A stretch of 64,000 nucleotides of DNA from Bacteroidota bacterium (GTDB lineage: Bacteria > Bacteroidota > Bacteroidia > Flavobacteriales_D > Sanyastnellaceae): positions 118,615 through 182,614 of the forward strand of contig NVXE01000007.1 of NCBI GenBank assembly GCA_002746975.1, read 5' to 3'. This document shows positions 39,625 to 52,781 of this stretch, one piece after another. The notes beneath the pieces were generated by a model. The model saw only the letters and a list, made by a program, of their open reading frames with translations. It was not told the DNA's origin and searched no databases. The translations under genes were made by a program, and so were the position numbers. Position 1 is the stretch's first letter; every line of letters starts with the position of its first letter.

Positions 39625-42600
39625 TTAGCGAACAAGGAAGACGTTTCCTGTAGCAATTTTAGCACCACGACCATCAATTTGTTTAATCTCAATTCTCCAA
39701 CTAAATGATTCAGTAGAGCTTACATAATGCGTTCCATTCCCATCAGTGACATTATCTCCAACCCAAACTTCACCAAGGGTTGTGGAATTAAATACAAGTT
39801 TTCCCCATCTGTCGTATACCCAGCATTCATAGCTTAAAATGTATTCTTCTCCATTAACTTGAGGTTTCCAAGCGTCATTATTGCCATCATTATTTGGAGT
39901 GAATGCATTAGGCACGAATATCTGAAGCTCACTGTTAACGATAATAGTTTGTGATGCAACGTCAGTACAACCATATTCATTTGTAACAAGTAGCTGAACA
40001 TTATAGCTTCCAGCTCTTTGATATTCGTGTTCTGGGTTAACCTCTGAAGCTCCGTCTCCATCTCCGAAAGACCAAATGTGTTCAGTTTCACCTTCTGAAA
40101 GGTTAGTAAACGTAACAATTGGATCTAAGAAGGTTATAATATCGGGAGTAACGTTAAAGTTAGCTATTGGTGGATACCAAGCTTGAAAAGCAGTATCTAA
40201 ATTAATTGTAACAGAACAGCCATCATCACTTGTTACAGTAAACATAGCTTCGTAAATACCTGGGTAAATCACATCAATCAGAAATGGAGATTCGAAATTA
40301 TTTGGTATAACAAAACCAGGAACATCAAGTTCAAAATATGAAGATCCTCCTGAAGTATTTAGAATTTCTACTTGTGTAGGTAGACAAATAGAATTCTGTA
40401 AAAATGTTACTTCAGGTGTCGGAAGTGGATAAACTTCAAAATCTTCAAAGACTTGTGCTGTACATCCATTAGTGTCATTAACAATAAGACCTATAGTAAA
40501 AACACCTGTTCCAGACGCTATCAGATTAGGAGAGTCATTTACGGTTTCTGTACAATCAGTTATTCCAGTAGGGAATACAGTCCATGAGTACGCTTCAATT
40601 CCGCTAGAACAGTTTAAGCCAGATATTTCAGACGAAAGATTGTTAACCAATATAGTTGCATCTCCAGTATTATCATAACAAACAGCTTGTTCGACAAAGT
40701 CAAAGGCAGGAGTGGGGACTGGATGCACTGTAATACTTTCATATCCTGTTGTGACACACAGTGGATTGGTTTCAGAAATGGCTGTGAAACTTACTTCATA
40801 AACACAATCTCCAGCAGAATAGTTTACACACTCAAAAGTAATTTGAGGGTTTGATGTTCCAGTCAATGATTCTCCATTTCCGAAATTCCATGCTGTTACT
40901 GACGCTAGTTGAGCCGCTGAGTTAAAATTAACAGTAAGTGGGCTACATCCCTCAGTAATGTCAGCACCTAAGGAAATAACAGGATGTTCAGACATATTTA
41001 CGGTAAGAGCTCCACTAGCTTGACATGAGTTGCCATCACTTACTGTTAGTGCAACATTAGAAGATCCCGAAGTATATAATGGACAGAAATTAAAGCTATC
41101 TCCATTGGAATATGGCATGCCATCAAGGCTCCAATCATAACTCAATGGTAAAACAGGAGTGTTGTTCCAGTTTATTAAAAAATTGATACAATCACCCTCA
41201 CATATAGCACTAACTCCCTCGAAGGTAAATGAAGGACTTTCGTTAATCAACCTATCGATAATAGCATCACTTGAACACGTTAAGTTTCCAGCATCGACAT
41301 AAAGTATATTACCTGTGACACTAATGTTTAATATCCCAGCCTGTAAACTTGAGTATGAAAGGTTGGCTACATTAAGTCCTGGATTGTTTAAATCAGGCGA
41401 TTCAGAAGATGAGTCTTCAGAGGGGCTACTAACCCATGTGTAACTTTCGGCTCCCGAGATATCTATAGAAGCACCTGACCCTTCACACTGAAGCCCATTA
41501 AAAGAGAGATTTATAATTGGATTCGGTCTAACATCAGCTATTAATGATTGGTCAGTAAGACAATCATAATTACCTGATAGTAATACTGATGGAGTAGTTA
41601 AAGTAGATGTTGCTACAAAGCTATCTAGATTATTAACGGGATAAAACGTATAATCATTACCAATATTAGATGTACTTGGAATATTCCATGAAATTGATCC
41701 GTTAGTACTAGCTGAAATCACTAATGTGTCACCTTCACAAATAGCAGAGGTTGAGATATTTAACTGAGGACTTTCCAGAACTTCAACGTCAATATCTGAT
41801 ACGCCAACACATCCGGATAAGTCAGTTACCGTACATGAAATGTTATTGATACCTGCATCAGTTGGAAATGCAAGAGGAATAGTAACTTCATTTGAAGATT
41901 CTATCAATAAAGTGTTATTTAATTCCCAAACAAAACTGTTATTAGAAGGGTTCATGCCTCCTGTATTAATTAAAACATCATCTGAACCACAAACAATAGG
42001 ATTAGCACTGTTTAGTTGAACATTAGGAAGGGCTAAAATATCAAAAGAAAAGTTCAAAGAACTCGAGCAAGTAAGGCTTCCGTATATAATATCACCTGTT
42101 ACTGATCCTTGCAATGGAGAAACAGAGAATGATGGATAAGTGGCAGAGCCTCCATTTTGAGATTCCGGAGTAGGAATCCATGAATATAAATCTGCCCCAG
42201 AAGCGGTTAATGATGGTGCTATGTCTTCGCAAAAGGCATTTCCATTCACAGACGCAAGGTTAAGTATTGGATTTAAATGAACCTCTGATGTTGTAGATTC
42301 AAGGGTAGAGCAAACTAAGTTTCCTATACTTGTTCCAGTGTAATTAATACTTCCCACGACATCAACATTGATTCCATCTGCCATAATAGCTGAATGGGTA
42401 TTTGTACCTCCAACTGTGAAAGGAGGTATTGGCCAATCGTAGTTAGTAGCATTTCCAGTAGCTGTAAAGTTTACAGGTTCATTTTCGCAAGCTGGTGTTG
42501 CACTAAGAGTAAAAAACACACCTTCGTAGACCTCAAGATTAAATGAATCTTGTGCTGTGCAACCATTATTGTCAGTTACAGTAATGCCTACAGTAGGTGT

Positions 42601-44778
42601 AGAACTTGCTAAACTTGTGAGGTCAACGGGTAAAGTGTCAAATGGCCCACTTGTGCTCGAGGTGCTAATGTTAACCCCATTTAAACTCCAATCAATAGTA
42701 TAAGGTGGTGTTCCAAAGTTTAGAGAGGTTTCGATATTTGCTATTTCAGTGGAGCAATAGACGATATCTGCATCTAGGCTACTTAAAGTAGCAACTGGGT
42801 CGGCATTTATTGTATAACTAAATGATGTAGTTGTTGAACATCCATTAGCCCCAGCTCCAATAACATTTCCACTAATAAGAGCAATTCCTAAATTTGTAAA
42901 TGTGATTGAATTTCCATTTGTAATATCAGCTACAGGGTTTGAATCCCAAAAATACGAGACTCCACCTGTCGCAGTCAAAGTTATATCGTCACCTGCACAA
43001 ACGTTACCGGATGAAGTTACCTCAATTATTGGCTGAGCGTCGTATTCAACGATAAAATCAAAAGTTGATGAACACGTAGTTACGCCGAAGGTAGAGCTAC
43101 CTGTAATGGTGACAACACCATCATTTGAAAATAAACCGAAGGGCACATCTACACAATTGCCTACAAGTAATGGGTCTCCTTCCCAGCTATAAGACCCTGC
43201 TCCTGAAGCACATAATGGAAGGTTTTCATCTAAACAAATTGGATAGTTTAAAGTATTCGGGGTAGCTGTAACTACTGGGTTAGACCAAACAACTGTAGAC
43301 ATGTCCAGTATTGCGTTGCAACCGGATGGTTCGGTAACTTGAACTGAAACTTCAAAAGGAGATGGTGTAACAAGGTTTGTAGAAAAAGTTGCTGCATTTG
43401 ATCCAGACTGTGGCACGCCATTAACGGACCACAGATATTCCGCTATTCCGCTATTAGTTACGCTTGAAACTTCATATGATACGAGATCATTTTCACAACC
43501 TGCAGTTGGAGACGATACTAGAGATAGTTCAGGTAGAGGGGTAACTGCAATATTGAAAGGCACAGTAGTCGAGCAAGTAACACCGGTAGTGCCATAAGTT
43601 AGAGACCCAGTCATTGTGCCAGAAACAGAGGTTAAAATATCACAGTAAATAGCTTGATTGGACAAGTTATTTATTTGGCAAGGAAGTGGAGCAGAGGTCC
43701 AAGAGAAAACAGCAGCTCCTGTGCCCTGAACTGTAGCAGATTGACCGCTACATACAGTCGCAGGAGTTACTAAAGCAGCAACTACAGGGTTTTCCTGCAA
43801 CACCACATTCTGACTAGTGGTACTTGAACATGTAATAAGGCCATAATTAACATCTCCAATAATAGATATTATTTCTCCGTTAATTAAAGTGCCAGGTAAA
43901 TACGAAGCAGTGAGACCAACGACAGAGTTGGGAGTAGGAGAGAAGACTATGGTCGTATTTGGTTCAGAAGAAAAAACAGTACCTTCTACCGGAACATCCT
44001 CACAAACAGGTGGCACAAATAGAGACAAATTAGGAGCTTGAAATATTTCAAAATCGACTGTGAGTGACGCAGTAGTGGTATTTATATCACCAGTTGCATT
44101 GAAAATTAATTGATGGTTACCGGCAGTTAAAAAACCAGCAGAGAACACTTCGCCAAAATCAATTACTCCAGGAGTGGTACACGATGTAGAGGCAATAAGT
44201 GTGGTAGATGAAATTGAGACTCCATCGAGAACTATGTCCAAATATATGTTTAAGTTGTTATTAGACGCAAGTTGCCAAAGCACTTCAATATTATCATTTG
44301 TACAAGAGGAAAGTGAAGTGAAGTTATTAACTACGATATCTGGTGTGCCAGCTACGGTAATTTCAGTGACAGGAGCATTAGCTGCTGTAGCACAATCGAG
44401 AACGTTTAGTGATATGTCATAACAACCTTGAGTGACAAATTCAATAGCAACATTAGTGGAATTTAAGTTTGTTCCTTCTGTGAAAAACCAATCAACTCCC
44501 TCAACACCACTGTTTATGGACCATGTGTAAATTGGAGGTGTGGCACATCCTGGGTCTAAATCGGTTGTTGTGTTCGTCGTATGAACTATGAATCCAGCGT
44601 TAGAACTTCCTTGAACGGCATCCACTGTAAAAGAAGGAAGTATAAATAATTCTGCGCTTCTTGATTCAGTAGCATATGAAATAGCGCAACTAAACAGTAT
44701 TATAACAGATAGTAAAACCTCGCGAAAAGCGTGTTTTCTATGCGATTTCAGAGTTTTTGTATTTCTTGTTAGGTTCAC
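39625..44778 (-). CDS. Giant secreted protein with PKD domain and T9SS type B sorting domain
   Basis: 1717 residues, signal peptide (about 1-40, ending YATES). The body consists of a dozen or so ~100-residue immunoglobulin-like units, each with phrases such as VCSGQSATVQGTGA, CAGDDITLTATGG, ICEGDTLVISAS, and a pair of Cys. A clear PKD domain is near 1550-1610 (FNVTPDIITFLDP, WSFGDGDGASEVNPEHEY). The last ~90 residues are the gliding-associated type B C-terminal domain: FVPNAFTPNNDGNNDAWKP, VYDRWGKLVFNS. It is exported through the T9SS, likely to a surface filament or adhesin. Divergent from the 732-residue repeat protein. Confidence 0.92.
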   Translation of the reverse strand: MNLTRNTKTLKSHRKHAFREVLLSVIILFSCAISYATESRSAELFILPSFTVDAVQGSSNAGFIVHTTNTTTDLDPGCATPPIYTWSINSGVEGVDWFFTEGTNLNSTNVAIEFVTQGCYDISLNVLDCATAANAPVTEITVAGTPDIVVNNFTSLSSCTNDNIEVLWQLASNNNLNIYLDIVLDGVSISSTTLIASTSCTTPGVIDFGEVFSAGFLTAGNHQLIFNATGDINTTTASLTVDFEIFQAPNLSLFVPPVCEDVPVEGTVFSSEPNTTIVFSPTPNSVVGLTASYLPGTLINGEIISIIGDVNYGLITCSSTTSQNVVLQENPVVAALVTPATVCSGQSATVQGTGAAVFSWTSAPLPCQINNLSNQAIYCDILTSVSGTMTGSLTYGTTGVTCSTTVPFNIAVTPLPELSLVSSPTAGCENDLVSYEVSSVTNSGIAEYLWSVNGVPQSGSNAATFSTNLVTPSPFEVSVQVTEPSGCNAILDMSTVVWSNPVVTATPNTLNYPICLDENLPLCASGAGSYSWEGDPLLVGNCVDVPFGLFSNDGVVTITGSSTFGVTTCSSTFDFIVEYDAQPIIEVTSSGNVCAGDDITLTATGGVSYFWDSNPVADITNGNSITFTNLGIALISGNVIGAGANGCSTTTSFSYTINADPVATLSSLDADIVYCSTEIANIETSLNFGTPPYTIDWSLNGVNISTSSTSGPFDTLPVDLTSLASSTPTVGITVTDNNGCTAQDSFNLEVYEGVFFTLSATPACENEPVNFTATGNATNYDWPIPPFTVGGTNTHSAIMADGINVDVVGSINYTGTSIGNLVCSTLESTTSEVHLNPILNLASVNGNAFCEDIAPSLTASGADLYSWIPTPESQNGGSATYPSFSVSPLQGSVTGDIIYGSLTCSSSLNFSFDILALPNVQLNSANPIVCGSDDVLINTGGMNPSNNSFVWELNNTLLIESSNEVTIPLAFPTDAGINNISCTVTDLSGCVGVSDIDVEVLESPQLNISTSAICEGDTLVISASTNGSISWNIPSTSNIGNDYTFYPVNNLDSFVATSTLTTPSVLLSGNYDCLTDQSLIADVRPNPIINLSFNGLQCEGSGASIDISGAESYTWVSSPSEDSSSESPDLNNPGLNVANLSYSSLQAGILNISVTGNILYVDAGNLTCSSDAIIDRLINESPSFTFEGVSAICEGDCINFLINWNNTPVLPLSYDWSLDGMPYSNGDSFNFCPLYTSGSSNVALTVSDGNSCQASGALTVNMSEHPVISLGADITEGCSPLTVNFNSAAQLASVTAWNFGNGESLTGTSNPQITFECVNYSAGDCVYEVSFTAISETNPLCVTTGYESITVHPVPTPAFDFVEQAVCYDNTGDATILVNNLSSEISGLNCSSGIEAYSWTVFPTGITDCTETVNDSPNLIASGTGVFTIGLIVNDTNGCTAQVFEDFEVYPLPTPEVTFLQNSICLPTQVEILNTSGGSSYFELDVPGFVIPNNFESPFLIDVIYPGIYEAMFTVTSDDGCSVTINLDTAFQAWYPPIANFNVTPDIITFLDPIVTFTNLSEGETEHIWSFGDGDGASEVNPEHEYQRAGSYNVQLLVTNEYGCTDVASQTIIVNSELQIFVPNAFTPNNDGNNDAWKPQVNGEEYILSYECWVYDRWGKLVFNSTTLGEVWVGDNVTDGNGTHYVSSTESFSWRIEIKQIDGRGAKIATGNVFLVR

Positions 44779-44961: not shown

Positions 44962-47160
44962 ATGAAAAGATTTTACTCGATATTAGGGATGTCCCTTCTC
45001 TTATTTACAGGGGCTAAAGCCCAAAGCTTCCCCTTAGAAGTAGTAACACACCAAGTACACTCATTGACTCAAGGTGTTGCTGTACTGGATGGTATGACTA
45101 CTTATAGGCTTTACATTTCTAATATGGGGCCAACGGATTTTATCAGTAGTATATACGGTAATGACCAAGATCCGTTTACTCTGTCAGCACCAGGAGGGAT
45201 TTATAACTCTAGTTTTAATGCATCTTGGAGCGCCTCTGGAATATCTCCAGTCTTCGTTGGGCTGTTTCCCGAAATGGAGTTTGACTCTTATGCTACGATA
45301 GGACTTACTGAGTCTGCAGCGACATCGGGTATTGTTGGGGCTGCTGACCCCTCTGTTGTAGAGGACCCTACTCAGCAAATAACGCCTATGTTTTTAACTG
45401 ATGGGTCTACTGGCACTACGGTAAATTCAATTACTGGTATAGCGTACTATATACTAAATGGCAACCCAGTTGGATTGCCTGATGTAACAGGTCGTGTTCT
45501 TATAATGCAGATTACAACTGCTGGAACATTAAGCGGTACCATAAACGTACAAATATTCCCTAGTGGAATTGGTGAGAACTTTGTCACTATGACATATGTA
45601 TTTGACGGACCAGGATCCTTCTCTGCGGTAGGAGCTTGTATTAGCGATATTGACGGTGATGGTATTTGTGATGCGGATGAAATCCCTGGATGTACTGACG
45701 TTAATGCATGTAACTATGATATGACAGCTACTGATGATAATGGTACTTGTGACTTCGTGGATACTGATGGGGATGGAGTTTGTGACGCAAATGAGATACT
45801 AGGATGTACTGATTCTACCGCTTGTAATTATGACCCTTCTGCTACAGATGATGATGGATCTTGTGGCGTTCTAGACGGATGTGGTATTTGTTTAGGTGAT
45901 AACAGTACTTGTATAGGTTGTGGAATTGAATTTGCGTGTAACTATGACGCTGCTGCCATTGTAATTGATAACACTCTTTGTGAGTACGAATCTTGTGCCG
46001 GCTGTATGGATAATACTGCTTGTAACTATGATGCAACAGCTACATTTGATGATGGCACTAATTGTTTGTTTGCTGTAGAATTTCTGGATTGTGCGGGTAA
46101 CTGTTTAAATGATGCTGATGCTGACGGAATTTGTGACGAAAACGAAGTAGTGGGTTGTACAGATATGACTGCATGTAACTATGATGCACTAGCTACAGAC
46201 ACAGACAATACACTATGTGTATTTGCTGAGACAAATTATGATTGTGACGGCAACTGTATTAATGATACCGACGGTGATGGAGTATGTGACGAGAATGAAG
46301 TTAATGGTTGTACTGATATGACTGCTTGTAACTATAACGAGACTGCTACCGACGACGATGGTACTTGCGACTTTAGTTGCTATGGTTGTACTGATATGAC
46401 AGCGACTAACTACGACATGGACGCAACTATGGACAACGGTTCTTGTTGCTACCTAGTTATTTCGTTAGATGTAACTGACGCTATATGCTTTGACGGTGAG
46501 GGTATGATTACAGCAACTGTTACTGGTGCTACTGAAACTGTTACATACACTATAGGTGAGATTTCAAATGAAACAGGTGAGTTTAATGTTGCTCCTGGGA
46601 CATACACTGTAACGGCTACAGATTCAAACGCTAATATGTGTTCTTCGTCAATGGAGGTTACAGTTATGTCTGGAGTTGAGATGACAATTACAGCATCTGC
46701 TACTGACGAAACTGCTGCAGAAATGGGAGTTGGAACGGCAACTGCAACTGGCGGTGATGGGAATTACACATTTGTTTGGACTGATGCTGATGGAAACGAA
46801 GTAGATCCAAATGCATTATCAGCTGGTGAATACACTGTTACTGTTAGCGATGGTCAGGAATGTTCAACTTCAACGACAGTTACTGTAATTCTTAACGGAA
46901 TTGAGAATATTGATCCTTTAGCTTTCGGAATGTTCCCTAACCCTACTACGGGTGATGTTACAATTCAAGTTTCTTCTGTAATGGAGGATGTTAGAATGAG
47001 AGTTCTGGACGCAACAGGACGTGTTGTGTTTACTCAAGATGCTGTCGTTCTACAAGGAGCTACAACATTTAACTTCTCTGGAATTGCTACAGGAACTTAT
47101 ACTATTATGCTAAGTAACGATATGGGAACTTCTGTTCGTAGATTGTCTATTCAGCGTTAA
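44962..47160 (+). CDS. Secreted Cys-rich repeat protein with T9SS type A sorting domain
   Basis: 732 residues, signal peptide (1-20). Residues 21-225 form an Ile/Thr/Gly-rich beta domain (TTYRLYISNMGPTDFISS). Residues 229-497 hold seven GCTDxxACNYDxxATDDDGTC-like units and four thrombospondin-type-3-like Ca2+ motifs of the form DxDGDGxCDxxEixGC. Residues ~500-645 resemble SprB repeats (GTATATGGDGNYTFVWTD, GEYTVTVSDGQEC). The C-terminal ~80 are the type A T9SS signal: FGMFPNPTTGDVTIQ, GTYTIMLSNDMGTSVRRLSIQ. Likely a Ca2+- and disulfide-stabilised surface protein. Substrate or partner unknown. Confidence 0.9.
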   Translation: MKRFYSILGMSLLLFTGAKAQSFPLEVVTHQVHSLTQGVAVLDGMTTYRLYISNMGPTDFISSIYGNDQDPFTLSAPGGIYNSSFNASWSASGISPVFVGLFPEMEFDSYATIGLTESAATSGIVGAADPSVVEDPTQQITPMFLTDGSTGTTVNSITGIAYYILNGNPVGLPDVTGRVLIMQITTAGTLSGTINVQIFPSGIGENFVTMTYVFDGPGSFSAVGACISDIDGDGICDADEIPGCTDVNACNYDMTATDDNGTCDFVDTDGDGVCDANEILGCTDSTACNYDPSATDDDGSCGVLDGCGICLGDNSTCIGCGIEFACNYDAAAIVIDNTLCEYESCAGCMDNTACNYDATATFDDGTNCLFAVEFLDCAGNCLNDADADGICDENEVVGCTDMTACNYDALATDTDNTLCVFAETNYDCDGNCINDTDGDGVCDENEVNGCTDMTACNYNETATDDDGTCDFSCYGCTDMTATNYDMDATMDNGSCCYLVISLDVTDAICFDGEGMITATVTGATETVTYTIGEISNETGEFNVAPGTYTVTATDSNANMCSSSMEVTVMSGVEMTITASATDETAAEMGVGTATATGGDGNYTFVWTDADGNEVDPNALSAGEYTVTVSDGQECSTSTTVTVILNGIENIDPLAFGMFPNPTTGDVTIQVSSVMEDVRMRVLDATGRVVFTQDAVVLQGATTFNFSGIATGTYTIMLSNDMGTSVRRLSIQR
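45646..46455 (+). repeat. Coding tandem repeats: seven GCTD-ACNYD units and four DGDG motifs
   Basis: In the 732-residue protein, seven units of 25-45 residues start with GC(T/M/G)D and contain ACNYD; unit spacing is irregular because the Ca2+-type DxDGDGxCD motif and short Cys loops are interleaved. The DNA copies are diverged rather than identical, so this is an old expansion, not a recent slip. The same unit occurs once in the amylase and twice in the subtilase. Confidence 0.85.
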
Positions 47161-47298: not shown

Positions 47299-49614
47299 AT
47301 GAAAAATATTGTTTCAGCGATTTCTTTTGTCGCAATTTTTATTATGCCTTTTTCTGGGGCTCTAGCCCAAACCCCTTATGGTCTTCCCGGTGAGGCTGTT
47401 CCTGGGGAGTTGATAGTGATGTTTCACGATGCTTCCGATATAGAGGGTTTCGAGAGAGAGAATATAGTGGTCGGGGGATATTATTTGGGCTTAAAGTTTG
47501 AGAAAGAACTAGCTCCACTCTCACATATTTCACTATTCAGTTATGACATAAATCATCCTAATATTGATCTTGCTCTGAAGGAAATTGGTGAAAATTCTAT
47601 TGTTGAGGCTATTCAATTTAATCACTATGTTGAAGATCGTGAGACCGTGCCTAACGACCCTAGTTTAAGTACGCAATGGCATCATATTGAAAATGGTGAT
47701 CATGATATCGATAGTGATTTGGCTTGGGATATCACGACTGGAGGTTACACTGTTTCTGGAGATTTAATTGTAGTTGCTGTCCTCGAAGGTGGTGGAGCGA
47801 ATTATTCTCACACAGACCTAATTGACAATCATTGGACTAATGAATTTGAGATACCGAATAACGGAATTGATGACGATGAGAATGGTTATGTTGATGACTA
47901 TAATGGTTGGAATACAGTTACTAATAGCGATGGTATTGCAACTGGTGGGCATGGAACTTCGGTGAGTGGAATGATAGGAGCTCAAGGAGATAATGGAATA
48001 GGAGGAGTAGGGGTAAATTGGAATGTTGGGATTATGCAAATCCAAATGGGTGGGCTGAGTGAGTCAAGCGTAATAGAAGCTTATAGCTACCCACATATTA
48101 TGAGGAATCTTTACAATACAACAGGAGGTTCCAAGGGAGCTTTCGTAGTTGCGACTAATGCTTCTTGGGGTATAGATTTAGCAGACCCGGCTCAATTTCC
48201 CGTTTGGTGTGGATATTATGACGATTTAGGTGCCGTGGGAATTTTGAATTGTGGGGCCACCGCAAATGCCCCTTATAATATAGATACTCAGGGCGATATG
48301 CCTACTGGGTGTAGCTCGGATTACATGGTTTCTGTTACTGCGACCAATGATAATGATGTGAGAACATTCTCGGCATTCGGTGCAACTACTATTGACTTAG
48401 GTGCTCCAGGAGAAAATGTATACCTAGCATCTGGAAGTAGTAACTATTCTAGTACATCGGGAACTTCTTTCGCTAGCCCATGCGTAGCTGGAGCAATAGC
48501 GTTAATGTACAGTGCGCCTTGTTCTACTATCGGTTCGAGCGCTTTGACCGATCCACAAGGGACAGCTGATTTAGTGAGGGGATTTATTTTTGATGGTGTG
48601 GATTTAATACCAAACCTTACTACTGAAACGGTAACAGGAGGGCGTCTCAATGTTGCGAACTCTCTTGAGTTGCTCATGCTTAATTGTGACCCTACGCTTG
48701 GCTGCACGGACTCTATTGCGTGTAATTTCAGCCCGGTTGCTATTACTGATATAGGTAACTGTCTTTATTTCGACGGATGTCTCGTTTGTGGAGGCGATAA
48801 TTCTTCGTGTTCTGGTTGCATGGACGATACAGCAAATAACTACGATTTCGAAGCAACGTTAGATGATGGTTCGTGCTGTTACTTAGAGTTAAGCTACGAA
48901 GTAGATGACGCTAACGTACTTTGTTACGAGGATAACGCGCTAATTACAATTTCTGCTACGGGTGTTGTAGGTGCAGCCGACTCGGTTTGGTTTTCATTAG
49001 GAAACTCTCCATTACTCCAAAACTACTCGGGATTATTCAATCAATCTGTAGGCGAATATTCCGTATTAGGAACTGACTTAAATGGTTGCAGTGCATCTGT
49101 TACTGTGGTTGTAAACGGACCAGACCCATTAGAGATCACTCTTAGTGCTACAGGTGATATGGGGGGAGCTACAGGCATTGGAACAGCTTCTGCTGCTGGA
49201 GGAACAGGAGATTATACTTACGTTTGGATAAAGGCTACCACAGGCGAAGTTTCTGATCCAAATGCACTTGCTAGCGGAGTTTACAATGTCACTGTTACTG
49301 ACTCAAATGGTTGTGAGGACTCTGGGAACGTATATGTTGACGATGTGTTCAGTATCAACGATATTGATCCACTTCCATTCACTTTAGGACCTAACCCCAC
49401 TTCATCTTTCGTCTCTATTCACTCGGACATTAATATTGAAGGAGCTAGGGTAGAGGTGTATGATGGTTTCGGAAGAATTGTCTTATCTACTTTAGTAAAG
49501 GAAGGAGGATCTGATTTGGTTCTCGATTTAAGCGGACTTGCAAACGGAGTTTACTCCCTTTCTTTAATCGGGGAAAACGGTACTTCTGTAAGACAGGTTT
49601 CAGTACAGAAGTAA
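47299..49614 (+). CDS. Subtilisin-like (S8) protease with Glu at the Asp position, T9SS type A tail
   Basis: 771 residues from the ATG at 47299 with signal peptide ending ALAQ (24); an in-frame TTG at 47278 adds seven residues and is less likely. An inhibitor-like propeptide is at 25-115. In the S8 domain the usual V-A-V-I-D-T-G segment reads VVAVLEGGGANYSHTDL, so Glu163 stands where the catalytic Asp is expected. His218 (GGHGTSVSG), oxyanion Asn287 (ATNASWG) and Ser390 (SGTSFASP) are normal. Then two GCTD-type Cys repeats (about 468-526), an SprB-like repeat (600-672), and the type A sorting domain (FTLGPNPTSSFVSI...VSVQK). The end faces the ferredoxin gene, stop to stop. Confidence 0.85.
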   Translation: MKNIVSAISFVAIFIMPFSGALAQTPYGLPGEAVPGELIVMFHDASDIEGFERENIVVGGYYLGLKFEKELAPLSHISLFSYDINHPNIDLALKEIGENSIVEAIQFNHYVEDRETVPNDPSLSTQWHHIENGDHDIDSDLAWDITTGGYTVSGDLIVVAVLEGGGANYSHTDLIDNHWTNEFEIPNNGIDDDENGYVDDYNGWNTVTNSDGIATGGHGTSVSGMIGAQGDNGIGGVGVNWNVGIMQIQMGGLSESSVIEAYSYPHIMRNLYNTTGGSKGAFVVATNASWGIDLADPAQFPVWCGYYDDLGAVGILNCGATANAPYNIDTQGDMPTGCSSDYMVSVTATNDNDVRTFSAFGATTIDLGAPGENVYLASGSSNYSSTSGTSFASPCVAGAIALMYSAPCSTIGSSALTDPQGTADLVRGFIFDGVDLIPNLTTETVTGGRLNVANSLELLMLNCDPTLGCTDSIACNFSPVAITDIGNCLYFDGCLVCGGDNSSCSGCMDDTANNYDFEATLDDGSCCYLELSYEVDDANVLCYEDNALITISATGVVGAADSVWFSLGNSPLLQNYSGLFNQSVGEYSVLGTDLNGCSASVTVVVNGPDPLEITLSATGDMGGATGIGTASAAGGTGDYTYVWIKATTGEVSDPNALASGVYNVTVTDSNGCEDSGNVYVDDVFSINDIDPLPFTLGPNPTSSFVSIHSDINIEGARVEVYDGFGRIVLSTLVKEGGSDLVLDLSGLANGVYSLSLIGENGTSVRQVSVQK

Positions 49615-51148: not shown

Positions 51149-51178
51149 CAAAGGTCGTTTATTTTAAAGTGCTACAAA
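51149..51178 (-). promoter_or_regulatory. Promoter of the U32-ferredoxin operon
   Basis: On the minus strand TTTG (complement of 51175-51178), 18 nt, GACCTTTG (complement of 51149-51156). The predicted start of transcription is near 51143, about 15 nt before the ATG. Confidence 0.6.
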
Positions 51179-52458
51179 TCAAATCTAAACGTTTTTTGAA
51201 TTTTCCCTACTTGCTCATCTGCAACACCAGCCTTTATTGCGAATGTCTCCCAGAGTCTAACTACCTCCATTATTTCATAAATACTGTTCTCAGCATTCCC
51301 GTAGCTTATATTCTTTCCTACCTCTAATAAATCGTCTATTGTGAAATCGTCTCTTTTGCCATTAACACTCATTTGGTGTGAGTTAGTCCAAATCCCTGTT
51401 GGATTATAAGAGTATGTAATATCATAGGCAGGTGATAGTTTCCACTTCCCCTGTTTATTCATTAAAAACGAAATGTTTTTTGTGTGATCGTCTTGATTTC
51501 TTGCTATCACATTAAATACCATTCTTTTAAATAGCTTTACTGCATCCGAGTGTGGCAATCCTAGCTTTCGAATAATATCTAAACCATCTTCGTAAGAGTA
51601 TTCCCCCGCTTTTCTAAAGTCGTAGTGAGCAATAGAGCAAAGTGTTTGCATATGGAGCTTTTCATTGTTTCCTATTCTATCAAACCTCTTCGTCATGAAA
51701 TGAGCTCGTCCATTCTCTTCAAAGAGTAACGACGGCATCATCTCAATCCCGCACTCAATAGCCATCAGGTAGTAAGCGTATTCTATTCTTCCATAACCTA
51801 TAGGGTCTGACAATGAACTGTCTTCCACTCCGTCAAACTTCAATAAATAATGTTCAAATCCTTCAGGGACAGAAGTTTGTCCAGATCTAATTTCCTTTGT
51901 CACTTCATTATAAGCGATTATCGCCTTCGCTCTCTGACCTCCTGCTGAAGTCCCTACTTTGATAAGTTCATTCAGCCCCTCTGTATCTTGAAGGTTAAGC
52001 TTGATTTCTTTTCGATTATTAAGTATTTGCTGTGCTAATCCGACTAGTTTGTCAATATTAAGCGTAGTGGCGTTTTTCAAATGAACATTTGTCGCAGGTT
52101 CAAATTCTAACGCCCCCATCCCTCTAGACCCTATGTAGCACAGTCTATCTAGTGGTGTAAAATCATCTTTGTTAATTTTATTTAGGGATAACCATTGGTT
52201 AATTAACTCATTACCAAAATCATCCGGCAATACATCCGACAATAGTCCAGGCAACCCTTTGAAAGTCTCTTTATTTAATGACGAGAAGCTATAGATGGTG
52301 CCCTTTGATTCAAAAATAGGCATGTGAATAGGAGACACATCAAGATTACTATTTGTGAATTCGGGAAAAAATTCAAAAGACCCGAAATTCCGCTCTTTAT
52401 CCCAACTTAAGGCCCCTAGGTTTTGTCCCCATAATTTTATTTTGACTACATCTACCAT
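51172..52458 (-). CDS. hipA: HipA-family serine/threonine kinase toxin
   Basis: 428 residues, near the E. coli HipA length. The N-terminal subdomain has LWGQNLGALSWDKERNFGSFEF. GTSAGGQRAKAIIAYN is the P-loop/autophosphorylation segment, MTKRFDRIGN follows, the catalytic Asp is in IARNQDDHTKNISFL, and the Mg-binding loop is SPAYDITYSY. HipA phosphorylates glutamyl-tRNA synthetase in E. coli and induces dormancy; the target here is assumed. The start overlaps hipB by 7 bases. Every catalytic residue I can judge is present. Confidence 0.93.
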   Translation of the reverse strand: MVDVVKIKLWGQNLGALSWDKERNFGSFEFFPEFTNSNLDVSPIHMPIFESKGTIYSFSSLNKETFKGLPGLLSDVLPDDFGNELINQWLSLNKINKDDFTPLDRLCYIGSRGMGALEFEPATNVHLKNATTLNIDKLVGLAQQILNNRKEIKLNLQDTEGLNELIKVGTSAGGQRAKAIIAYNEVTKEIRSGQTSVPEGFEHYLLKFDGVEDSSLSDPIGYGRIEYAYYLMAIECGIEMMPSLLFEENGRAHFMTKRFDRIGNNEKLHMQTLCSIAHYDFRKAGEYSYEDGLDIIRKLGLPHSDAVKLFKRMVFNVIARNQDDHTKNISFLMNKQGKWKLSPAYDITYSYNPTGIWTNSHQMSVNGKRDDFTIDDLLEVGKNISYGNAENSIYEIMEVVRLWETFAIKAGVADEQVGKIQKTFRFDL

Positions 52459-52781
52459 TGTGCGTTCCCTTTATGTTCTTTAGATTTCCCAGAAGCACGG
52501 ACTCTTTCTTTTCCTTTAAGTTTAAGTAGCTCAATAGGACTCGCTCCTTTTTGAGGAAGGAAATGGTCTAAACTGTCGAGCTCGCCTAAAACTCTCATTA
52601 TTCGAATAAGAGTTTTAAGTTTAATGCTTTTGCCTTGTTCAAAGTTTTTAATGGTTTGCGCATGAAGCCCGGACTTTTGAGCAACATCACCCTGAGTCAT
52701 ATTGAGATTTAGCCTTCGCTGTTTTACGCGGCCCGTAATTTCATTTATAATTACATCATCTGTTTTTGTAGAGTATCCCAT
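52452..52781 (-). CDS. hipB: HipB-family antitoxin, XRE-type HTH
   Basis: 109 residues with helix-turn-helix about 20-75 (RRLNLNMTQGDVAQKSGLHAQTIKNFEQG). A C-terminal basic tail (KLKGKERVRASGKSKEHK) is long compared with E. coli HipB. It represses the operon and neutralises HipA. The upstream region has two palindromes and a perfect -7 element between them. Confidence 0.9.
   Translation of the reverse strand: MGYSTKTDDVIINEITGRVKQRRLNLNMTQGDVAQKSGLHAQTIKNFEQGKSIKLKTLIRIMRVLGELDSLDHFLPQKGASPIELLKLKGKERVRASGKSKEHKGNAQW

Follow-up and report, generated by a model that had tools for sequence, protein, structure and literature searches.

Descriptions of the active site in peptidase family S8 usually list Asp-His-Ser alone. 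Siezen et al. 2007 reportedly set apart one subset of subtilases in which the catalytic Asp is replaced by an equivalent Glu. An example with published activity is SprP (PA1242) of P. aeruginosa, which the accessible part of its description places in the 'E-H-S family' of the Prokaryotic Subtilase Database, with Siezen, Renckens and Boekhorst 2007 (Proteins 67:681) cited as the source of the family, and for which a triad of E262, H299 and S499 is predicted (PMC3937732). According to the same text, SprP produces halos on skim milk and hydrolyses Suc-AAPF-pNA, and the S499A mutant is without protease activity (PMC3937732). The accessible parts of four papers that cite the 2007 subtilase paper (PMC9549277, PMC2605481, PMC3339403 and PMC4214739) yielded no mention of the E-H-S type, and no report of a Bacteroidota E-H-S clade was found among the open-access papers that the literature searches listed.

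Subtilases with a T9SS C-terminal domain have been described from Bergeyella cardium, where SpBcA, SpBcB and SpBcC are putative T9SS cargo; in the available part of the source, SpBcA and SpBcB are reported to have an inhibitory propeptide and to show activity in vitro, with self-cleavage in the case of SpBcA (PMC11982257). The sedolisins (S53) represent another branch of the superfamily fold with a catalytic Glu, in a Ser-Glu-Asp arrangement (PMC11593635, accessible text).

The window, by which we mean the whole analysed stretch of 64,000 nucleotides, encodes a T9SS-type S8 (subtilase) protein of 771 aa with a Glu-His-Ser triad at 47299..49614 on the forward strand. The ORF list and translation place the ATG at 47299 and the stop at 49614, and an alternative TTG start 21 bases upstream of the ATG would give 778 aa. 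The protein consists, in order, of a hydrophobic N-terminus, a prodomain-like domain, the S8 domain, Cys repeats, an intervening region and a T9SS sorting domain, all features lying on the forward strand. Residues 1–24 (47299..47370) form a probable signal peptide, judged from the hydrophobic N-terminus, and are followed by the prodomain-like domain (residues 25–111, 47371..47631). The Peptidase_S8 domain (residues 156–406, 47764..48516) matched PF00082 with an E-value of 5.5e-22 and 78.8 bits against a curated cut-off of 21.8, which assigns the protein to peptidase family S8. A pattern search revealed two Cys-rich repeats of the form GCxD...C (48700..48876), which begin at residues 468 and 506; no Pfam match at E<=0.001 was obtained for this region. 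The T9SS type A C-terminal sorting domain (residues 698–770, 49390..49608) was recognized both by Por_Secre_tail (PF18962), which matched residues 698–767 with 39.4 bits (cut-off 27), and by TIGR04183, which matched the C-terminus with 40.9 bits (cut-off 23).

Both by sequence and by structure, the best match among solved structures was deseasin MCP-01 from Pseudoalteromonas (3vv3; phmmer 1.1e-32). In a gapped phmmer alignment, VVAVLEGGGANYSHTDL of the window protein was paired with VVVGVIDTGVDYSHPDL of deseasin MCP-01, which placed Glu163 (codon GAA, 47785..47787) in the column of the catalytic Asp. His218, the triad base in the HGT motif (47950..47952), and Ser390, the nucleophile in GTSFASP (48466..48468), were aligned with the His and Ser of deseasin. 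The Pfam and 3vv3 alignments thus bear out the preliminary description, which had read the protein as a T9SS-type S8 protein that has Glu163 in place of the triad Asp and keeps His218 and Ser390. The Asp of the classical D-H-S subtilases is absent from the acid site, where the Glu is kept across the clade, and the combination of Glu with a retained His and Ser is that of the E-H-S type. Deseasin itself has Asp in the triad, unlike the window protein, and to our knowledge lacks a T9SS sorting domain.

Compared by description, SprP resembles the window protein in its S8 domain, the Glu at the predicted acid position and the retained His and Ser (PMC3937732). The two differ at the N-terminus, which in SprP is a DUF nearly confined to Pseudomonas and in the window protein a prodomain-like domain; furthermore, the accessible text on SprP does not mention a T9SS domain, whereas the window protein has one, and protease activity is in print for SprP but predicted for the clade of the window protein (PMC3937732). 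The Bergeyella proteins share the S8 domain and the T9SS C-terminal domain with the window protein, but they are of the KP-43 type, with a D133-H160-S388 triad in SpBcA where the window protein has Glu, and their propeptide is reported to be unlike I9, whereas the window protein has a domain with a predicted ferredoxin-type, prodomain-like fold (PMC11982257, available part). In S53 the Glu replaces the His and the Asp is located on the same helix, whereas the window protein has kept its His (His218) and has the Glu in place of the Asp (PMC11593635, accessible text).

Homologues were sampled at several taxonomic levels. At E<=0.001, the window protein had matches in 97 of the 114 genomes from its own family, some of them weaker and to other S8 proteins. 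With Asp and Glu types taken together, homologues were found in 183 of 399 genomes of the order and 24 of 395 genomes of the phylum at E<=1e-30, and in 143 of 395 genomes of the class at E<=1e-40. A search of plasmids with the protease returned 25 records, each below 60% identity. The best-hit loci and representatives chosen among the matches listed gave 265 distinct S8 domains, after matches covering fewer than 250 query positions and duplicate domains had been left out. The acid site was Glu in 164 of these domains (GAA in 119 and GAG in 45), Asp in 100 (GAT in 67 and GAC in 33) and a gap in one; the 164:100 ratio does not represent a frequency, because the set was hand-chosen and uneven. 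The Glu rows belonged to the genome-family codes f1, f2, f3, f4, f9 and f74, with one row each from f10, f11, f18, f75 and f76, and the codes f74, f75, f76 and f18 belong to the class of the window genome but are listed outside its order. Records of the Glu type include Lishizhenia tianjinensis CGMCC 1.7005 (L227) and many Flavobacteriales MAGs; the MAG labels Saprospiraceae, Chryseobacterium gleum and Euryarchaeota are given as deposited and may be wrong. One Glu-type homologue, L120 (G083:C169), has a TAA stop within the matched frame and is possibly a decayed copy.

The preliminary description had called for an alignment with homologues, and had noted that a Glu confined to this protein, with Asp in all homologues, would amount to a single change. 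This case is false, and the Glu is a conserved trait of a subfamily. For the same reason a single mutation or error is ruled out, with Glu spread over 164 domains and two codons. An artefact of sequencing, assembly or gene calling could be suspected from the 14-contig draft assembly and from the fact that most of the named relatives are MAGs, but the Glu is found in many assemblies, that of the named Lishizhenia strain included, and is encoded by both GAA and GAG; we regard this explanation as having practically no chance of being correct. For the nearest relative, dN was 0.036 and dS 1.66, the latter near saturation. The median dN/dS values (0.28 for 272 Glu pairs and 0.34 for 18 Asp pairs) were not used, because saturated pairs were mixed in.

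The 264 readable rows have solely Asp or Glu at the acid site, suggesting that a carboxylate is required. Within the 164 Glu rows, the His and the Ser of the NxS tripeptide were present in all. The oxyanion Asn was present in 163, the remaining row having a gap, and Thr389 and Ser390 were present in 163, the remaining row having an X, so that no Glu row had a substituted His, oxyanion Asn or Ser. Forty of 366 columns reached 99.4% identity among the Glu rows when gaps and X were excluded. These data bear on the alternative that the protein is a pseudoprotease, in which the subtilase fold has been kept as a non-cutting binding, adhesive or structural module on the T9SS surface. The altered triad acid is compatible with this idea, as are the Cys-rich repeats in the C-terminal part and the fn3, GEVED or PKD domains of relatives, and pseudo-subtilases, the Csp pseudoproteases, are reported to exist. 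A pseudoprotease is, however, defined by the loss of catalytic residues, whereas the His (164/164), the oxyanion Asn (163/163) and the Ser (163/163) are intact in the readable Glu rows and the change of the acid is conservative. Moreover, if the fold were no longer needed for catalysis, Asn, Gln, Ser or Ala would be expected to turn up at the acid site as well, and none of these was seen in the 264 readable rows; the prodomain-like fold has been retained, and an E-H-S subtilase, SprP, is active according to the accessible part of its description (PMC3937732). A working triad predicts an acid site limited strictly to Asp or Glu and a His, Asn and Ser that are left unchanged, whereas a freed binding module does not, and we consider the pseudoprotease improbable. 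Of the two options offered in the preliminary description, the family that tolerates Glu is thus supported by the 164 domains, while nothing positive was found for the binding or structural module.

The preliminary description mis-assigned Asn287, which it lists as intact beside His218 and Ser390. Asn287 (48157..48159), located in TNASWG, is by motif comparison Asn123-like and opens the NxS strand tripeptide, a structural element. The oxyanion-hole Asn is Asn323 (48265..48267) in GATAN, which aligned with AAAGN of 3vv3 and is intact. In subtilisin the oxyanion Asn is Asn155, which is distinct from the NxS residues Asn123 and Ser125. The tripeptide corresponds to Asn123-Ser125 in savinase, and both Asn and Ser/Thr groups are known at the CHO1 position, according to the accessible text of PMC11593635. 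Column 287 contained Asn in 143 and Ser in 21 of the 164 Glu rows. The idea that one subclade had lost its oxyanion Asn was considered and rejected, since the Asn-to-Ser change sits in this column, which is of the Asn123 type, and column 323 is Asn in every readable row. The 21 rows with Ser (L140, L141, L145, L246, L275 and others, with the codes f9, f3 and f10 and one row each from f74 and f1) represent a switch between two known subtilase CHO groups within one clade.

The structure of residues 25–470 was predicted by AlphaFold2 with 68 relatives, with a pLDDT of 89.2 and a pTM of 0.81. The top match of the model in VIA-align was deseasin MCP-01 (3vv3), with a Z-score of 45.0 and an rmsd of 1.8 A over 317 residues at 35% identity, and the match extended to residue 463. 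Other VIA matches were Plasmodium SUB1 (Z 39.8, rmsd 2.6), thermitase (Z 36.5, rmsd 1.7, 271 residues aligned) and subtilisin BPN' (Z 33.5, rmsd 2.5, 272 residues aligned); the predicted model has the subtilase fold. The model is also relevant to a reading in which the enzyme is active but His218 is supported by some other residue or by a water, Glu163 being structural. Several further acidic residues are invariant in a 24-row Glu alignment, as such a reading would have it. Much of the acidic stretch NGIDDDxNGYVDD is, however, common to Asp-type relatives and was therefore not gained as compensation. The acid site furthermore alternates strictly between Asp and Glu, and the Glu model matches Asp-type subtilases across the S8 domain, which makes another supporting residue or water very improbable in our view.

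The N-terminal domain alone was modelled with a pLDDT of 93.8 and a pTM of 0.84 and has a beta-alpha-beta-beta-alpha-beta topology in the AlphaFold2 prediction. The VIA matches to subtilase prodomains were PC1/3 (Z 8.0), A. fumigatus ALP1 (7.3), PCSK9 (7.2) and BPN' (6.7), with furin-bound PC1/3 within 6.7–8.0; these values of at most 8.0 lie within the range about which VIA itself warns, and AHAS/ACT (7.8 and 7.5) and S6-like (7.1) folds had similar scores. No Foldseek match at E<=0.001 was found for the domain, the best being A. fumigatus alkaline protease at 3.0e-3, followed by EF-1 beta, and the region had no Pfam match at E<=0.001. The predicted fold and the position of the domain are consistent with an I9-like prodomain but do not prove it.

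Taken together, we hold it to be highly probable that the window protein is an active, exported Glu-His-Ser protease of the subtilisin family. As the Glu is kept in many relatives in which the other catalytic residues are intact, the protein probably works as an enzyme, with a triad of a type that is uncommon but has been described before, and by role it would be an ordinary exported protease. It would cross the inner membrane as a zymogen and then leave the cell through the type IX secretion system. The N-terminal domain is probably an I9-like foldase and inhibitor that would be removed after folding, and the C-terminal domain would be processed by the PorU sortase. Glu163 would take the role of Asp32 in subtilisin, its carboxylate accepting a hydrogen bond from His218 and thereby supporting His218 as the general base for Ser390, with the oxyanion hole presumably formed by Asn323. 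A function in nutrition or in processing of the cell surface would fit such an enzyme. Several points count against this reading. No assay of any member of the clade was found; the exchange of Asp for Glu in a triad that has evolved with Asp should shift the carboxylate out of place by roughly one methylene; and the Glu of SprP is a predicted member of the triad, the point mutant in the accessible text being S499A and not one of E262. The low prodomain scores, the similar scores of other folds and the paralogue L085, in which no T9SS sorting domain was found at E<=0.001, also weigh against it.

We examined the history of the exchange in trees. The 265 domains, less three rows that were incomplete or odd (L078, L079 and one of L259), were thinned at 72% identity to 134 rows (53 Glu and 81 Asp), and the tree was built without the columns around the acid site. 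It required 4 state changes, as compared to a shuffled mean of approximately 42. All but one of the 53 Glu rows fell into one group, which also contained 4 Asp rows; the Asp rows of f75 were placed inside this group, as were the long-branch Asp rows L075 and L077. Nine rows, mostly on long branches, were then left out (L075, L077, L081, L086, L087, L090, L121, L318 and L344; L090 and L121 have Glu). In the resulting 125-row quick tree, 50 Glu rows and 2 Asp rows of f75 were located on one side of a branch with an SH-aLRT of 99, and the 72 other Asp rows were likewise on one side of a branch. The Glu row L338 fell outside the main group of 50. A tree that held the 50 Glu rows together without f75 was 25.3 log units better, with an AU p-value of 0.696. 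The quick trees had missed this better tree, and the SH-aLRT supports, 99 included, therefore need caution. Since the AU test did not reject the 50 Glu rows as one clade, a single change from Asp to Glu suffices for the main group, and the large clade in which the Glu is fixed may be monophyletic. L338 and L090, which are placed elsewhere or on very long branches, may represent separate changes.

The claim of a reversion from Glu to Asp in f75 was dropped in view of the better tree. The Asp proteins of f75 share His129, Ser139, Met225, Ala348, Thr386 and Phe391 with the Glu clade, and may be either a near, Asp-bearing sister or the product of a reversion. The f75 loci L265–L267 and L270–L272 combine Asp with a background like that of the Glu clade and have HG(V/I)N in place of HGT after the His. 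Both the Asp and the Glu version are present in genome G897. Because Asp and Glu relatives occur in similar backgrounds, the effect of the triad acid would be directly measurable.

Apart from the acid site itself, the columns that best separated Glu from Asp rows include 395 (Leu/Cys vs His), 225 (Met vs Ile/Thr), 348, 386, 391 (Phe vs Met) and 221 (Gln/Ala/Asn vs His). By the subtilisin motifs, 221 follows HGT, 391 follows the nucleophile and 395 closes GTSMASPH. Clade history alone could account for these differences. Another reading, which we put forward tentatively and think rather unlikely, is that the catalytic acid changed from Asp to Glu essentially once in a Bacteroidota lineage and that the surroundings of the active site were rebuilt to suit it. 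The longer side chain of Glu would then possibly replace the conserved water that coordinates Asp32, and the Asp-bearing f75 relatives would have part of the rebuilt surroundings. If this is true, the exchange of a triad acid could be followed in the clade as in a natural series. What is new here is a large Glu clade in Bacteroidota, in which 7 of 8 full-length relatives scanned have T9SS tails and which has near Asp-bearing relatives. Such a large clade with intact Glu-His-Ser residues would risk being labelled 'inactive' under Asp-His-Ser rules.

Profile searches for SprA and PorU gave matches above the cut-offs for both in the window genome, which makes export by the T9SS plausible. A T9SS type A sorting domain was present in all of the eight full-length Glu relatives scanned except L085, a paralogue from the same genome, and several of these relatives also carry fn3, GEVED, PA, PKD or SprB domains. 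The paralogue, on contig C6, is a second Glu-type S8 protein, in which no T9SS sorting domain was found at E<=0.001; a borderline dockerin match near its C-terminus scored 22.9 bits, equal to the cut-off. The window genome (95% complete, 14-contig draft) has two PF00082 matches only, both with Glu, and Asp-type S8 proteins are also present in at least 7 of 14 genomes of the genus.

Immediately upstream of the protease, 44962..47160 on the forward strand encodes a T9SS-tailed protein of 732 aa that has Cys repeats of the GCTD type and, more weakly, a SprB repeat; in 6 of the 9 nearest loci (L151–L159) the protease gene is likewise preceded by an ortholog, with 64–81% identity. A repetitive protein of 1717 aa is encoded on the reverse strand at 39625..44778, with a gliding-type C-terminus (VPNAFTPNNDGNNDAW) as read from the sequence, and had matches near the protease gene in 9 of 80 loci from relatives. 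On the reverse strand at 51172..52781, adjacent genes for a HipA-type kinase-like protein and a small helix-turn-helix protein, as read from the translations, form a possible toxin-antitoxin module.
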